From Phaeodactylum tricornutum CCAP 1055/1 (taxonomy: Eukaryota > Bacillariophyta > Bacillariophyceae > Surirellales > Neidiaceae): a DNA stretch of 64,000 nucleotides. Each line of letters opens with the position of its first letter. Positions within the stretch are counted from its first letter, which is position 1. A model generated the notes under the pieces. That model was given only the letters and a program-made list of their open reading frames with translations, was not told the DNA's origin and did no database searches. Of the stretch, positions 33,266 through 41,951 are shown in pieces. A program made the translations under genes and the position numbers. The stretch lies in the NCBI RefSeq assembly GCF_000150955.2, contig NC_011672.1, positions 1,232,433 through 1,296,432 of the forward strand, in the 5' to 3' direction.

Positions 33266-33903
33266 GTTGCGTCTCTATGTTTATATAAAAGTGTACGGGT
33301 GTCTGGATGTAGAAAGGAATGAGTATAGGTAAAAGGGAACGAGCGCAAGGATTGTTGGCGCTTCTTAAAGTGAGTGTCGTTGAGAGAGTATCGACAGGTA
33401 AGACTGCTGGGAAACGTCTCTTGGGCTGGGCTTGTTATCTTTCGACTTCTACTATTCGTCGAGATGATGAATGTGAATGTGAGTGACAACGGTGAATGGG
33501 TATTGGTACCTTACCGTACCTACCGGTATCGACTGTGAGACGAATTCGTTGGGTTGGGGGAGATGTTTCGATGTCGATTCGGGATATTTCGAAATTGGAT
33601 GGTAAGCCAGACCAGAATAGCGGCTGATGCTTTGGCATCGTTGCGGAATTCCGAGTTCCGAATTCGTAATTAGTGATTGGGTTACCGACGTGGGACCCAC
33701 GGAAGACGACTCCTTCGGACTCGCGCCATCCCTAACTGTAAAACGTCTCACAGTCACAAAACATTTCCCCGAACGAGTAAGAATTGGAACACAAACGCAC
33801 ATACCTTTCTTGCCTATTACCCTTATTCCCAATCCATACCGAGACCCAACAAGCCAACGAACAAGGGATCGTCGCCACTCTTCGTACAACGCTATTCGCA
33901 CCA
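33266..33903. promoter_or_regulatory. Divergent upstream region with three RACTGTRA copies
   Basis: Between the neuroguidin-like and GAF genes the motif occurs as GACTGTGA at 33531-33538, AACTGTAA at 33734-33741 and, reversed, TCACAGTC at 33748-33755. The last two lie about 150-170 bp before the GAF-gene ATG. Confidence 0.45.
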
Positions 33904-35523
33904 ATGGCACCCCCGATCCCCACAACAACAACTCGTGGTCGTCGTGAATCCGCACCGGATTGGGTCTTGACGAACTACGACGTTGACACTTCCGTTCCCC
34001 CGGACGTCGAGACGGAACTCCGGCGATTGCGCGTCCTCCAATCCTACGATATTCTCGATCGCGAGTGGGATACAGCCTACGATCGTTTGGCACAAATCGC
34101 GGCACGAGCCTTGCAAACCCCCACGGCCTTGGTCGGTGTGGTCGATCTCGGTCGGTACTGGCGTGTGGCCCTGCACAACTGCAACAGCAACATTCACCAT
34201 AGTAACAATCATCATCACCGTGATGCTCCACGGGAACTGCCACGAAAGCAGGCCATAGCGTCACACGTGATACTCCAACGTCAGGGATACTTGGTAGTCA
34301 TGAATGTCGGGAAGGATTCGCGTTTTGTCGATCATCCCGCCGTCCGCAACGGCACTTTCCAATTCTACGCCGGAGTCGTACTCCGCTCGCCGGAAGGGTA
34401 CCCTCTCGGTGTGCTCGCAGTTACCGACACGCAACCCCGATTGCACGGCGTCTCCCACGAACAATTGCAAACCCTGCGAGATTTGGCGGACGCCCTTGTC
34501 GATTTGATGCACACGCGGCGGCGACCGAAAGGAGATACGGGGCCTGCCGCCATCACCCGTCCTACGGCTCCTGCTTCGACTACTACTACGACTCCTCCGT
34601 CCAATCCACCATCCCCCACCAACCACACCAACACCAAGGATACCAACAACAGCTCATCCTGGGGAGTGCAACGGTCCGCACGCTTTTTGCGACAGTACTT
34701 GGCCAAACTCAATGACGACTCGACGCTCGAAAACGTCCTCACCAAGGACCAACGCGAACTACTCCGCTCATCCTACGATGCCGCCGCCTTTCTCCACGGC
34801 TCCCTCTTACCTCCCGAACAACGACAAGAGCTAGTCCGAGAAAATCGTCCCGATCAAGTCACCAGCGTACAGATCGCTAGTCTGGTACAGAGTGTCGAAC
34901 TCGCCATGGATGCCTTTCCCAAGACCGTGCCCGTCCGCTACCAAATCGACGACGAACAAATTCCACCCTTCGTCCTTCTCGTCGAACTGAAAATATTTCG
35001 ATCCTGCATCGCCCTCTTGACGAGTGCCTGTGAACGCACCCGCCAGGGCGTCGTCTGCTTGCGGGTCTTTGTCCAACAACGCACCGTCACGCAGAAAGAA
35101 CTCGTCTTTGAGTGCGAAGATACCGGACCCGATGTGGAACTGGAACAGTACGACGATTTATTCGACGCTCCCCTGGACCATACCGCCGACGTTGGTGAAG
35201 AAGACTGTATCCGGGCAGATCCCCATACGGGAAAAATTCGCAAGGCACTCCGGTGCGCCACCGTCCCCAACAGTCGCAGGGGACATGGCGTACACGCTCT
35301 GGCCGACTTTATTGGTTCCATCGAGGGCGGTGACTATGGATTCAGGCCCCGAGAAACCGAAGACTTTGAACCACATGGCACTGGAACGGGGTCCGTCTTT
35401 TGGTTCAGTATCGCCTTGCACACCCCACCAGCGACACGACACGGTACGGACGCAGTTGTGCCGCGACGACCCCAGCCTTGGATCATCTCCAGTGCACGGG
35501 GGCATGGATCCTTGGCAAAATAG
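33904..35523 (+). CDS. GAF-domain protein with degenerate histidine-kinase-like ATPase region
   Basis: The 539-residue product has an N-terminal GAF-like domain (residues about 35-215): a leading helix LRVLQSYDILDREWDTAYDR, ALVGVVDLGRYW, FYAGVVLRSPEGYPLGVLAVTD. This variant is common upstream of bacterial cyclases and kinases. A Thr/Pro/Asn linker follows, then a helical part and a region that looks like a worn HATPase domain: CIALLTSACERT in the N-box place without its Asn, CEDTGPDV in the G1 place, and a late GHGVHALADFIGSIEGG followed by GTGSVFWFSIAL. A phospho-acceptor His box is not evident, so kinase activity is doubtful. A regulatory or sensor role is inferred. I chose the ATG at 33904; upstream in-frame codons are not ATG. 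Confidence 0.7.
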   Translation: MAPPIPTTTTRGRRESAPDWVLTNYDVDTSVPPDVETELRRLRVLQSYDILDREWDTAYDRLAQIAARALQTPTALVGVVDLGRYWRVALHNCNSNIHHSNNHHHRDAPRELPRKQAIASHVILQRQGYLVVMNVGKDSRFVDHPAVRNGTFQFYAGVVLRSPEGYPLGVLAVTDTQPRLHGVSHEQLQTLRDLADALVDLMHTRRRPKGDTGPAAITRPTAPASTTTTTPPSNPPSPTNHTNTKDTNNSSSWGVQRSARFLRQYLAKLNDDSTLENVLTKDQRELLRSSYDAAAFLHGSLLPPEQRQELVRENRPDQVTSVQIASLVQSVELAMDAFPKTVPVRYQIDDEQIPPFVLLVELKIFRSCIALLTSACERTRQGVVCLRVFVQQRTVTQKELVFECEDTGPDVELEQYDDLFDAPLDHTADVGEEDCIRADPHTGKIRKALRCATVPNSRRGHGVHALADFIGSIEGGDYGFRPRETEDFEPHGTGTGSVFWFSIALHTPPATRHGTDAVVPRRPQPWIISSARGHGSLAK

Positions 35524-35617: not shown

Positions 35618-38600
35618 TCACAGTCGCGTGCTCGGTAACAAAGCAGCTTGGTGTTTCAGAGCCCGTAGCAATGTTGCGTGCCGATGCTTTTCTCCAATGT
35701 GGGCTTCGATGCGTTGACGAAGCTGGCGAAGTGACAACGGGCGAGACCCGATCGCTGCTCTACTTCCCTCTTCCAGATTGAGCAGAGTCCCAAAGAAGTC
35801 GGTCCAGAGCTCGACGGTATGTAGGCGTCGGTGCAGACGCTCCTTTGGCATCCAACGTTTGTTCTGGTCCAATCGAATCTGCAAATGACTCCCAAACAAT
35901 AACACGTGGGCCGACGCGCAAGCTGCAAATGTATCGATGTCAAAAGACCAAGGCAGGCCCTGACGCATGGCCACGCACATCATGTCAGGAACCACAGCAT
36001 CCCCTACAAACTTGACATCCAGAGGCTCTAATCCCTGGTGTAGAGCGGTCAGATCTTTCGCTCGACCAAAATCTACGAGCATCAAATCCGATGCTTCCAA
36101 TTCCTGATTCGCAACAATGGAAGAAGAAACCAGAACCCAATTGTCGGGTTTGGCATCGCAGTGCTGGTCACGAGGCGACATGGGATGAGGCGACGACAAC
36201 AATAACAACATTGCAGTGTAAGCTTCCATTCGAACAAACGTACCAGCATTTTCCCATGCCAGTGCAGCAGCTCCAAGTGATGGAGGATACGGGACGTATA
36301 ATACAGGACAAGCTCTTCCGGGATCCTTTCTTGAAGCTTGACTTGGTAAAAGTTAGATAGGTCCAGCAGATTCAATCCCGACCTAGACCCAGCCGTCATG
36401 CTGAGAAGACCGCCGTCAGCCAACGACATGAATGTAAGCGGTCTTGCAAAAGGAAAAGAAGTTGATTCCGATGTCCGCAAGGAAGGGCCAACCCGCTGCA
36501 GAAGCTTTTCCATGACTTCAAATTCCCATGCAAGACAATCTGTTGGCGATTGCGCCTTAACTGCAATTACGTTAGAACCGTCAAGAGCAGGCTCCGTGGT
36601 TTCGAGCAGCGTCACAACACCGTATACTCCTCGACCAAGCTCATGTTTGACTGTACTCGAGCTGGCTCCAACATTAATGCCCGCTCCCGTAGTTAATTTC
36701 TTCCCTTTCAAGGATCGAGGCAATACGTGAGAAGCTAAATTATACAAATTGTTTGGCTTTGCCAAAATATTGGCGAGCGATTTGTTGGGTTTCAACCGTC
36801 CGACACTCCTCTGACTGATTCTTTCTCGAGCTTCTTGCACATCCCTTTTGTGCAAGTCGTTGTACTCCACAGCCCGCTCCACACCGGGGACAAACAACAT
36901 CGTAGTATCATCCGTCGGCACAATGCGAGAAATATCCCCAAAGTCGAATCCCTCCGAGGCTCCTTTCGATTCATGCCTTTGGCGCTTGTTACTTCCATCT
37001 GCAAATTCGTGCATACGACACAATAAAGTATTAGCAACTAATCAATAATTTTACATTTTGGTTGGCATCACGACTTACTATCAAGATCCTTGCCTTCCAC
37101 GACGCTTTCTTCGATTGTACTGCCACCGTAACTGACATCAGCGAGGGCATCCATGGCATCTCCCAAGAGTGAAAAAGTAGCAGTATCCCCTTCGCTGTCG
37201 GCTGCAACCTCCAGCGAAGTCGCAGATTCACGAAAAACGTCAACAGCAATACGAGACATAGACCTCTGCTCAGAAGGAGATTGTTGCTGAGTGTCGTTGC
37301 GAATTTGAAAGGGCGCAAATTGACGTGAGGGGTGCTCGTTGGAATTCAGAGACAAAGCTTCATCTTGGAAAATAGTAAACGAAGGCACTGGATTTGTAGA
37401 GCGATTTTCGCTGTCGTTGAAAACGGTAAATCCTGGATCGGTGTCGAGTTCTCGTTCTTCATTGTCTCGGGTGGGGTCATGCTGAGCTATTTGCCCAATG
37501 GTTCGTATACCTTCACTTTGACAAGACAAACGCGGGCGATCTTGTTCCTCCTTCATGGTACGCAGGACCAAGCCGTCGAAACCCGGGGTATCGTTGGAAC
37601 GAGGTTTAGGATTGCGAGGCCCGTTGTTCTCCACTTCTTCGTTCAATCCAGGATCTACAGAGCGAGAGAAGGAGTTGTTACTTTCTTCCCCAACCAACTC
37701 TGCAATCGCGGCAAAGTCCGCCGTATCGCCAGTCTCGCCTGCGTTGTTGGGAGGGGGGTCTAGCACTTCGGAGACGCCTGAGTCGTTCATGATAGTGCCA
37801 AGTCCATTGTAGCGGACGCTTAAATCATTCAAGCCCATAGCTGGACTTGAGAACATGATAGATAACTCCTTCAAAGCCAATTGCGTATTAATAGTCTGCT
37901 CATCTCTTCGTATTGGAGCCCCAACGGCGTTGGCTTCGTCCATGGTGGAACTCGCCGTCGAAATATTCCGTGGAGTTAGAACATCAAAACTAGAATCCTG
38001 GGGAGTTAGCATACGAATGCCAAGGGCTTTTGGCTTGGAAGCTGCTTCCTCCGGTCGAAATAGAGGTCGTTGTACGTCGTCGAAGGAAACATCATCGTTA
38101 GTCTCATCCACACTTGTTGACATGTTCGAGTCGTTTTGTTTTTGTCCTAATTGCCGAAAGAAGAGGTTGACATCGGAAGAGGGTAGCGCCAGTTGAAAGT
38201 ACCGCGCATGCGCACGAGCCTCTTCAAAACACTGTTCTTTACCGATAGAAGACTTCAGTAAATACTTGTTAAACGCATACTTGTTCGATTTGGTGGATTT
38301 CGCTTGGCGTTTCCCCACAGCAGGAATTGATTCTTCTGCTTTTTGGTCCGTAGCAAATTGCTCTGGATTTCGCATGTAGTGCAACGGATCCTTTGAAAGC
38401 CGTTCTGCTACACCAACCGTATCTCTTTCACGGAAGGTTCGTTCGTCTCGTCGATATCGGTGTTGGTCCCTATGCTGCAGCCGTTCCTGTTCTTCACGCT
38501 CCTGGCGCGTAGCACATTCGTCGTCCACGTGTACAGCGAACGGAGCCAGAGATAGACCTGGAGCACGCGACGGCGGGGCAGCAGCCGCATACAATGAGGT

Positions 38601-39593
38601 ATAAGCTCCACGATGATTCCAGGTTTCTACAGCCTGAGTATTTTCCTTTTTGCGATCTTCCTCTCGTTCCAGACGCTGGCGAGTTTGTATGGCATCCTCC
38701 CCCGGTGTCGAATCGTTGAATCCGGAAAAACCGCTGTTCTCTTCATTTTGATCCACAAAAATAGCAAACGCCCCCTTTGTAGACGTATTTGACCGTGTTT
38801 GTAGCTGTGATCGATGGGAGGCGTTTCGGTCACTAAATGTCGACAAGTTCGAGGTAGTCCGCGAAGGTACAACATTTAAAGAAGCGACGGCGGCGCGATC
38901 ATTTCTGCTTATCCTCTCATCCGACAAGGCTCCCAGTACGCCACGAGCGGAGGATTGCTCTAGCGTGTCTTCATTTTCCTCCTCCGCTTGCGTGGCATTC
39001 AACCAATGCCGAGTCATGCGCCTTTGAAACTGTTTGTGCCGCTGTAGAAGCAATTTGAGAGGCTGCGCCTTTTTCCGAATACCCTTATCCAGGATCTTTT
39101 CAGCAAACTGATAATTCTGCTGCTGCTCTGCCTTAAAGGCCCAGGCCATCCAGAACACGGCAATATCGCTCCCGATCCTTTGCTGATGTAGATGCTGGAA
39201 AACTTCCAGTGGACGATCGGTTTTGTCCGCATACATGCAGCACACGCGGACGAAGCGGGGATCGTTGGCGTACTTCTGAATGGGAGACAAGGCACGCAAA
39301 CAACGCTCAAACAAAAGAAACTGCGAGTGTGTATCGGACGGAAAGGCATCTTGATGATATTTTATGTAAGAAAGCCAGTGTATCAGTGGGTCGTCGTCGC
39401 CGCTAGCTTCATAATCCAAAGCCTCAGAAGTACGGACTAAGCGCTCGTAGTGTTCACTCAGGCGTGATTGTTCTCTGCGATCCTCTTCACTTTCCATCGC
39501 AGCAATGGATCGCTCCAGTGCGACAACGCTACGTCCCCGCTCCAACGGAGCGGCGTTTTCCTTGGAACGCTCCCACAAAGGCGTCGCTTCCAT
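35618..39593 (-). CDS. BUB1: MadBub spindle-checkpoint kinase (Bub1/BubR1/Mad3 type)
   Basis: Three exons (39593-37079, 36998-36244, 36163-35618; two 80-bp introns) give 1271 residues. The product joins features that animals split between Bub1 and BubR1. In order: a KEN box at 11-13, the Mad3/Bub1 TPR domain (about 40-200), a possible D-box RGVL at 217, ABBA-type FAIFVD at 276, a second KEN at 316, a second ABBA-type FAVHVD at 352, and a GLEBS-like Bub3-binding segment CFEEARAHARYF at 455. The C-terminal kinase has LGRGVYGVV (959), the Lys in IAVKAQ (986), the loop HCDAKPDN (1091) and DFG (1121), so the catalytic set is complete. Bub1/Mad3 proteins monitor kinetochore attachment and inhibit APC/C-Cdc20. 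The middle (470-950) is disordered and Ser/Asp/Asn-rich. Confidence 0.93.
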
Positions 39594-40012: not shown

Positions 40013-41248
40013 TCACAGTGCAGTCAGGTTTTCCAAATCCTTCTCAATGACGCGCTTGGTACCGTCGTCATTCCCGGCTGCTGCTAGTTTCGATGCCTCT
40101 TGTTGCTTACTTGATTGCTGCAGTGTACCGGATTCCCGGTATGGCTTCTGATTGGGTTTCCGATCCTTCCAATCCTGCCAAATCGTTGGACCGAGATATA
40201 CTAAAAAGTTTGGGAGACCCTGAATGGGCACAGTGAGGACGGAGAGTAGCAGCAACGCGTAGGGAGCGTCACCATCAAAAGTCTGTATCAATCGCACAAT
40301 CTGCCGCAATTAAGAAAAAGTTGACAAGGATGATTAGTGCAAAGGTCGATTGTTACAACCGAGACTCATCGCAACTCGGAATCGTACCGAAACACAGACC
40401 CAGTTGAAATAAAAGGCGCCGGCGTAGCACAGACACTGATTGGCAACTCTTCTTGTTCGACCACTCGACAACGAAGAAGCTGAAAAGCTTGATCGGAATT
40501 GACGTTGCGATACGACAGTGAACCCACCCATTGAATCGGATGAATGAGTTCTCCCTTCCAAATTTTCACCGGAGGTCGTTCTGGCGAATGAGTTTCGGGT
40601 ATAGAAATCTGCCTGATACTGTTCCGTTGCCCTTTCAATTCTGCGAACGTGAAGGAAGATCAGTAACAGTGTTGTGGTGACCGACCCAATTGCAAGCCAC
40701 AGCGGCACGTAGAAGAAGGCCCATCGATAGATGTCGGCCGCGTGTGGCTCAAGTCGACCTGGATGAGGCGCAATCCAACACCAAAAGGTGGCGTTGTTGA
40801 ATAACTGCAACGGAATCCCTGCTACGGCCGTTCCAATACCCCAAACTAGGGGAATTGTGTGAAGGAATGGCTCGATTCTTCCGATACTTTGGTCTTTCCA
40901 TCCGTATCGGATTGTTAGTAGATAGTATAACAAAAGGCTCGTGTTGTAGATGGGACCCGCGTTGCCGATTTGGGTGAAGAAACCTTGGAGCTCACATGTC
41001 TCTGTAGTCCCAACAGCCCATTGGACACCCGACTCGCGAGGAATTGGCCAAGTAGAAAGGGCCAACCAGAACGAAGTCGAAATGTCGATACAAGATATTC
41101 CCGCCACTAGCCTGTGGTAGGTTTTGCTACGCTTCCGCTTGTCTCGAACGACCGTCCAAACAATCAGACTACTGAAGAAAAAGGAAGTAGAACCCACTAC
41201 TTTCGGCATGGCCGCGAGAGCTCGTTGTTGTGCAATGGTCAACGCCAT
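40013..41248 (-). CDS. Seven-transmembrane receptor-like protein (cAMP-receptor-like)
   Basis: Two exons (41248-40388 and 40300-40013, 87-bp intron) give 382 residues. Seven hydrophobic segments can be placed; among them are FFFSSLIVWTVV, ISTSFWLALSTW, YNTSLLLYYLLTI, IPLVWGIGTAVAG and YVPLWLAIGSVTTTLLLIFL. After the 100-residue third cytoplasmic loop, FNWVCVSIVRLIQ and the final YALLLLSVLTVPIQGLPNFLVYL complete the set. The conserved Cys pair (CELQGF and the extracellular CWIAP) could form the usual loop disulfide. Overall pattern and the FNW helix recall cAMP-receptor-like GPCRs of Dictyostelium and other protists. The ligand is unknown. The splice joins VCVS to IVRLIQ, in phase. Confidence 0.75.
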
Positions 41249-41951
41249 GAGAACGATAAACTGGTTTGGCTTTCCCTTGGCACAGTTCTTTGAGCCTATG
41301 CGTACCCATCAAAAATATTGGAATGTTCGGTCTCTAGTAGGGTGGACACACCGAACGCGAACAGACAGCGAATGGGGTACTCGGAAGATTTTTCACGGTT
41401 TGGGAAATAACCGCAGACTTTTTGTGGTGGTTACCAAATATAAAGGAAAATGCTGACGATTGCTTTGATACGGTGTTACACAGAAATTGTGGTAATGGTA
41501 ATGATCGGAGAATTCCTGATTTGTGGCCCAACACCCAATCTCTCCAGATGATTGTCGGCTGCTCTTAAGTGAACTATTTTAGATAGCACTTGAAGTTAGG
41601 ACTTGCCTATATAAAAAGACATTTCTGGTCTTGCTCCGAATTCCGTTCACTATTGACCGTGACTTTCGAAAAGTGCAACGGAAGTGTCCCAGAGGAAAAC
41701 ACCGGTCACTCGAGAGCCCATAAACTACAACATTTATACAATTGGTTCTACCAATCAAGTTGGTTCGCCTTTTTCTTTCCAAAATCTTGCCAATGGCGTT
41801 TGTACCGTCGAGTCTACGCTAGCGTACCGTATTGGAAACGCACGAGTGCACAGTCAAGCCTCTCCACGGTTCACTGTCCAGAACGTGTACCTTACGTTGT
41901 GCCCGGTCCAACCGCGTCCAACCCTAGAACCAATACTAGAAATGCTGCCGG
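41249..41951. other. Intergenic region without supported gene
   Basis: Two overlapping plus-strand frames (from 41590 and 41684) run into the antisense of the reductase gene. Neither has recognisable domains, so I do not call them. Nothing else is evident. Confidence 0.4.

Follow-up and report, generated by a model that had tools for sequence, protein, structure and literature searches.

The 64,000-nucleotide stretch of the Phaeodactylum tricornutum CCAP 1055/1 genome analysed here (the window; contig NC_011672.1, positions 1,232,433 to 1,296,432) carries on its minus strand, at 35618..39593, a gene of three exons that join in frame into a protein of 1271 amino acids with a single terminal stop. 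The gene is very probably a single, undivided diatom MadBub, which holds in one product the parts of both Bub1 and BubR1/Mad3. An earlier interpretation made without database searches (the sequence-only reading) had proposed this gene, and its coordinates and three-exon join proved exact; its residue numbers are likewise right for KEN (11 and 316), RGVL (217), FAIFVD (276), FAVHVD (352) and CFEEARA (455) and, in the kinase, for K986, D1093 (within HCDAKPDN, 1091-1098) and DFG (1121). Overlooked in that reading were a CMI/CD1-like motif and two additional ABBA-like motifs. We infer the joining of the exons from the GT-AG splice sites, the open frame and the homologues. The features of the gene are as follows.

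37079..39593, minus strand: exon 1, ATG at 39593, residues 1-838 plus the first nucleotide of codon 839; it holds all features listed below from KEN1 to the second extra ABBA-like motif
39555..39563, minus strand: KEN1, residues 11-13, within WERSKENAAPLERGR, flanked by PLxxGR
39078..39404, minus strand: tetratricopeptide repeat (TPR) region, Mad3/BUB1 homology region 1 (PF08311), residues 64-172
38934..38945, minus strand: D-box-like RGVL, residues 217-220 (RxxL is a short pattern)
38751..38768, minus strand: ABBA1, FAIFVD, residues 276-281
38640..38648, minus strand: KEN2, residues 316-318, then W325
38523..38540, minus strand: ABBA2, FAVHVD, residues 352-357
38364..38447, minus strand: conserved block DERTFRERDTVGVAERLSKDPLHYMRNP, residues 383-410, from the homologue alignment, a candidate MadaM
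38208..38279, minus strand: GLEBS-like (putative Bub3-binding) segment, residues 439-462, core CFEEARA at 455
37842..37895, minus strand: CMI/CD1-like putative Mad1-binding motif TINTQLALKELSIMFSSP, residues 567-584
37413..37430, minus strand: extra ABBA-like motif FTVFND, residues 722-727
37362..37379, minus strand: extra ABBA-like motif FTIFQD, residues 739-744
36999..37078, minus strand: intron 1, 80 nucleotides, GT-AG
36244..36998, minus strand: exon 2, linker and kinase N-lobe, ending at LLHWHGKML
35654..36675, minus strand: kinase domain, residues 947-1260, split by intron 2
36556-36558, minus strand: kinase residue K986
36523-36525, minus strand: kinase residue E997
36164..36243, minus strand: intron 2, 80 nucleotides, GT-AG, directly before the HCD catalytic loop
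36140-36163, minus strand: catalytic loop HCDAKPDN, residues 1091-1098
36065-36073, minus strand: DFG, residue 1121
35618..36163, minus strand: exon 3, catalytic loop, DFG and C-lobe; the stop ends at 35618

Domains and motifs of the predicted protein

The Pfam profile search of the spliced protein placed the Mad3/BUB1 homology region well above its threshold (PF08311, E 3.6e-27, 95.2 bits against a cut-off of 31.4), and a PRP39 repeat match at the same place fell below the Pfam cut-off. In the PDB sequence search the best match was human BUBR1 (whole-sequence E 1.4e-32, best stretch 7-224), residues 7-199 also matched a Mad3 chain, and the kinase region matched human BUB1 (4qpm, E 3.1e-25) together with 6jkk; the GLEBS-like and CMI peptides gave no PDB sequence match at E<=10. 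The resemblance is thus greatest to BubR1/Mad3 over the first 224 residues and to Bub1 at the C-terminus. The strict ABBA pattern F-x-[IV]-[FYH]-x-[DE] occurs four times in residues 196-850, as compared with a shuffled mean of 0.026, and four occurrences were reached in none of 5000 shuffles. A loose PP2A-type pattern is also matched in the protein, as a candidate only.

The relatives used to judge these features came from a database of about 5.8 billion proteins; scoring was limited to the 7994 candidates with the most words in common, and 96 of them proved related at E<=0.001. A catalytic loop was recognised by pattern in 22 relatives, namely 21 diatom or diatom-like sequences and P0096 (eukprot label Mesvir1), which we take to be a green-lineage sequence and which was excluded from the counts, so that 21 homologues were aligned with the window protein. 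KEN1 is kept in all 21, the D-box-like R217 and L220 in 20, KEN2, W325 and ABBA2 in 20 each, and ABBA1 fits the strict pattern in 18 (the misses being P0019, P0007 and P0010). The sequence-only reading had staked its proposal on conservation of the KEN and ABBA motifs in other diatoms, and the alignment bears it out. Under a lenient test, which asks for R460 and for Glu at either 457 or 458, the GLEBS core is kept in 21/21, and T567, M580-F581 and P584 of the CMI motif are present in every homologue, as are, each, the Gly-rich loop, K986, E997, D1093, N1098 and DFG; C1092 is kept in 18/21 (not in P0024, P0043 and P0049). One sequence, P0019, lacks the D-box, ABBA1, KEN2, W325 and ABBA2 together, and the excluded P0096 fails ABBA1, ABBA2, C1092 and DFG as defined and has both KEN2 tryptophans. 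A second alignment of 19 rows, made without P0019, P0045, P0048 and P0096, gave the same picture with both KEN boxes invariant.

In a broader set of 137 TPR proteins both KEN patterns were found in 114, KEN2 only in 10 and neither in 5; three more have a degenerate KEN1 without KEN2, three have QEN for KEN2, and in two (P0047 and P0092) no KEN2 of the expected kind accompanies KEN1. The N-terminus is missing from some of these sequences. The QEN replacement is seen in three related sequences (P0054, P0062 and P0196) that keep the flanking ABBA motifs, KEN1 and the D-box. As a side observation, many MadBub homologues (P0002, P0003, P0005 and others) have a precomputed PF16500 match; this is presumably an N-terminal cyclin family model, and it may be responding to the ABBA motif that cyclin A also carries.

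The spacing of the CMI motif from T567 to F581 is 14, the same as from Thr461 to Phe475 of human BUB1, where phospho-Thr461 contacts Mad1 Arg617 and Phe475 stacks on Mad1 Phe629 (PMC8391104). The same source reports that human Ser459, two residues before this threonine, is phosphorylated first, by Cdk1. At the corresponding residue 565 (37899-37901) the window protein and its 21 homologues carry Glu in 20 and Asp in 2 of the 22 sequences. With an acidic side chain in place of the serine that Cdk1 primes in human BUB1, the CMI site would be ready for Mps1 without priming. In the linker behind the CMI motif we counted from one to nine ABBA-like motifs across the 21 homologues, as compared with shuffled means of at most 0.06; the single linker motifs of P0012 and P0024 were equalled by 1 and 18 of 1000 shuffles, respectively. 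Stramenopile ABBA repeat arrays and extra ABBA motifs near CMI have been described before (PMC5204127).

Kinase domain and splicing

The sequence-only reading had singled out the catalytic loop HCDAKPDN as a departure from the common HGDIKPDN. The letters were read correctly, and the loop as a sign of an unusual kinase is rejected: among 74 sequences with a recognisable loop, a pool not limited to one sequence per species, the residue before the catalytic Asp is Cys in 67 and otherwise Ala (3), Asn (2), Val (1) or Thr (1), and HCDxKPDN is the usual diatom form. That the domain might be a pseudokinase, like that of vertebrate BUBR1, is suggested by the replacement of the usual HRD arginine with cysteine, by the lack of a PF00069 report for the window protein, and by the title of the closest fold match to the modelled kinase half of a diatom homologue, P0099. 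This AlphaFold2 model (29 relatives; pLDDT 87.9, pTM 0.90) has as its top six PDB matches 6jkk, titled BubR1 kinase and the closest in fold, and five human Bub1 kinase chains, with TM by query length of 0.58-0.61 for all six; taken together, the six matches count in favour of the MadBub identification. The reading as a pseudokinase is nevertheless very unlikely, as the Gly-rich loop, K986, E997, D1093, N1098 and DFG are each intact throughout the 21 homologues, and human BUB1, an active kinase, carries Gly at the position of the Cys (HGD). DYRK kinases are active with HCD. The C-terminal domain is thus better read as an active-type kinase.

The donor of intron 1 is GTAAGT, preceded by GATA, and retention of this intron would add three further codons before an in-frame TGA, giving a kinase-less product of 841 amino acids. 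The gene could then make two proteins, a full MadBub and a Mad3-like form arising by regulated retention of intron 1, and the Mad3/Bub1 division of labour would be made by splicing, without gene duplication. The shorter product would keep the KEN, ABBA, GLEBS-like and CMI motifs; many diatom gene calls end near the same point with donor-like tails; the MMETSP open reading frame (ORF) P0070, labelled complete, has 821 amino acids and no kinase; and intron retention is seen in about 24% of P. tricornutum genes (PMC5859163). On the other hand, about 89% of shuffled introns of the same length and composition carry an in-frame stop, and about 28% carry one at most two codons from AGT-AAG; P0070 could be pre-mRNA, and retained-intron transcripts may be degraded. 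Moreover, for eight kinase-less calls the length of the longest contig equals that of a kinase-half call, as would be expected if single genes had been split in gene calling. These pairs, matched by eye, are P0054-P0099, P0044-P0100, P0065-P0108, P0060-P0118, P0031-P0158, P0231-P0110, P0230-P0116 and P0232-P0163. Titles, abstract beginnings and passages of the literature yielded no splice-made Mad3 form for MadBub, Mad3 or Bub1; the only splicing topic in the passages of one Mad3/Bub1 paper was nonsense-associated splicing in human knockout cells, and a search on Cryptococcus gave no result. We therefore consider two products from this gene improbable and favor one spliced MadBub.

The 74 kinase-less relatives were also considered as Mad3 paralogues, which is unsupported, given that many end near the junction of exon 1 and intron 1 with donor-like tails. 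Six of them extend to intron 2 (P0009, P0020, P0074, P0076, P0077 and, by eye, P0017). A true Mad3-like gene may still be among the kinase-less calls outside the eight pairs. At the position of intron 2 the gene call P0007 has three additional residues (VRM).

Gene number, checkpoint partners and divergent homologues

A second Mad3/Bub1 gene, the finding that the sequence-only reading had named as fatal to its proposal, did not appear in a six-frame search of the genome (27.45 Mb, 88 contigs). PF08311 has one match, the whole protein at E<=1 recovers its own three exons only, and the piece from the cassette to the GLEBS-like segment matches only itself. Among the presumed partners, HORMA has one match in the genome, Mad2, which fits the published remark that P. 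tricornutum retains TRIP13 and has neither p31comet nor HORMAD (PMC5579357). A human BUB3 query matched WD40 sequence at two loci, which it does not tell apart from Rae1. Of seven matches to the C-box pattern, four open, by eye, into WD40-like Cdc20/Cdh1 frames (L007, L008, L009 and L011); these carry DRFIPSR or DRFIPNR, and L009 and L011 end in IR, features that do not distinguish Cdc20 from Cdh1.

These partners count in favour of the identification as MadBub, as do five (P0023, P0024, P0038, P0205 and P0215) of nine transcriptome-labelled ORFs of other diatoms, in which TPR and kinase stand together. Several observations weigh against this identification. The gene product is predicted from the DNA sequence, and in the other four of the nine ORFs the halves are unjoined: P0070 has no kinase, P0107 and P0146 are kinase only, and P0218 has the kinase with its N-terminus missing. 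The general kinase model PF00069, precomputed for many homologues, found no match in the spliced protein at E<=10. Of the partners, the Mad1 C-terminus gave a match below the Pfam cut-off, as did 4 of 14 prokaryote controls, and the best PDB match of this weak candidate is MAD1 with an E-value of only 0.021. KNL1, sought with PF08317, gave nothing at E<=0.1, a negative that means little for a protein so divergent; two prokaryote controls gave matches below the cut-off in the same search. Finally, KEN2 is followed by W325 and there is no tryptophan between ABBA1 and KEN2, neither in the window protein nor in 19 of the 20 KEN2-bearing homologues (the exception, P0010, has a tryptophan beside ABBA1). 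Two flanking tryptophans specifically define KEN2, and mutating either weakens the human checkpoint, according to Tromer et al. 2016 (PMC5204127). The absence of the first tryptophan weakens the claim of a canonical cassette and leaves the family homology unaffected.

A metagenomic diatom clade formed by P0019, P0199 and P0201 has a degenerate KEN1 without PLxxGR and no recognisable KEN2, ABBA1 or D-box; it keeps the TPR, the GLEBS core and CMI. The kinase of P0019 is intact, and the gene calls P0199 and P0201 stop before the kinase. In the TPR tree the clade has a FastTree local support of 0.996, and with support of 0.078-0.184 at the neighbouring nodes its position was left unplaced. Its pattern is that described for BUB after duplication (PMC5204127), where the 16 duplications listed include three in stramenopiles (Albuginaceae, Ectocarpales and Aureococcus), none being named for diatoms. 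The clade possibly represents a further independent duplication or a loss of the role in the mitotic checkpoint complex, and without KEN2, ABBA1 and D-box, one protein for both jobs may not be the rule in every diatom. That this part can be lost in diatoms, together with the missing tryptophan before KEN2 in the window protein, could also suggest that the P. tricornutum protein is mainly a Bub1-type kinetochore kinase with relic Cdc20-binding motifs. We find this hardly credible in view of the retention of KEN1 in 21/21 and of KEN2 and ABBA2 in 20/21 homologues, and of the invariance of both KEN boxes once P0019 is left out of the alignment. An undivided MadBub with both sets of elements in use is the preferred reading.

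Comparison with known checkpoint proteins

By analogy with the human and yeast proteins we infer that one protein performs both checkpoint jobs in the cell. The GLEBS-like segment would bind Bub3 and bring the protein to kinetochores, Mps1 would phosphorylate Thr567 of the CMI motif and so dock Mad1-Mad2, and the extra ABBA motifs would keep Cdc20 close by. Through KEN1, TPR, D-box and ABBA1-KEN2-ABBA2 the same protein would enter the mitotic checkpoint complex as one of its subunits and so take part in blocking the anaphase-promoting complex/cyclosome, and its C-terminal kinase would phosphorylate histone H2A for error correction.

An undivided MadBub was inferred for the last eukaryotic common ancestor by Tromer et al. 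2016 (PMC5204127), with KEN1, TPR, D-box, ABBA1-KEN2-ABBA2, GLEBS, CMI and kinase in one protein, an arrangement matched here with a candidate D-box and a candidate GLEBS segment; the diatom proteins differ in lacking the first KEN2 tryptophan and in the acidic residue before the CMI threonine. The sequence-only reading had recognised the arrangement expected of the unduplicated ancestor, and this agrees with the published inference. Its single gene with both halves also stands; this architecture is already in print (PMC5204127) and ordinary in kind. Its statement that a duplicated pair divides these jobs in animals and budding yeast is too broad as regards animals, in which separate events are described for vertebrates, nematodes and flies (PMC5204127). 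As P. tricornutum was included in the van Hooff 2017 survey, which counts MadBub copies (PMC5579357), its single copy is probably already tabulated. Beyond that survey, the passages retrieved for diatoms and BUBR1 name diatoms once in each paper, a trypanosome paper included, and a motif-level description of this gene was not found in the literature searched.

Human BUB1 shares with the diatom protein the TPR, CD1/CMI followed by ABBA, and an active-type kinase, and its GLEBS has a candidate counterpart in the GLEBS-like segment, whereas KEN1, the D-box (here the D-box-like RGVL) and ABBA1-KEN2-ABBA2, which are BUBR1 features in humans, are added in the diatom protein, with DFG in place of DLG and HCD in place of HGD. 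With human BUBR1 and yeast Mad3 it has in common KEN1 with the flanking PLxxGR, the TPR and ABBA1-KEN2-ABBA2, and it differs from them in its intact catalytic residues and its CMI motif.

Elsewhere at least 16 duplications have divided MadBub (PMC5204127), and a genetically tractable alga with one undivided copy is a natural place to ask why. Motif or kinase mutants could be made here in a single gene that has no known paralogue. From the acidic residue before the CMI threonine it is predicted that diatom Mad1 docking needs Mps1 and not Cdk1 priming, and a cassette without its first tryptophan would test which portion of the human cassette is indispensable.

The gene lies between two open frames, one of 580 amino acids (33781-35523, plus strand) and one of 324 amino acids (40334-41308, minus strand), neither with a Pfam match at E<=0.01. 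The 324-residue frame looks hydrophobic by eye, resembling a multi-pass membrane protein.

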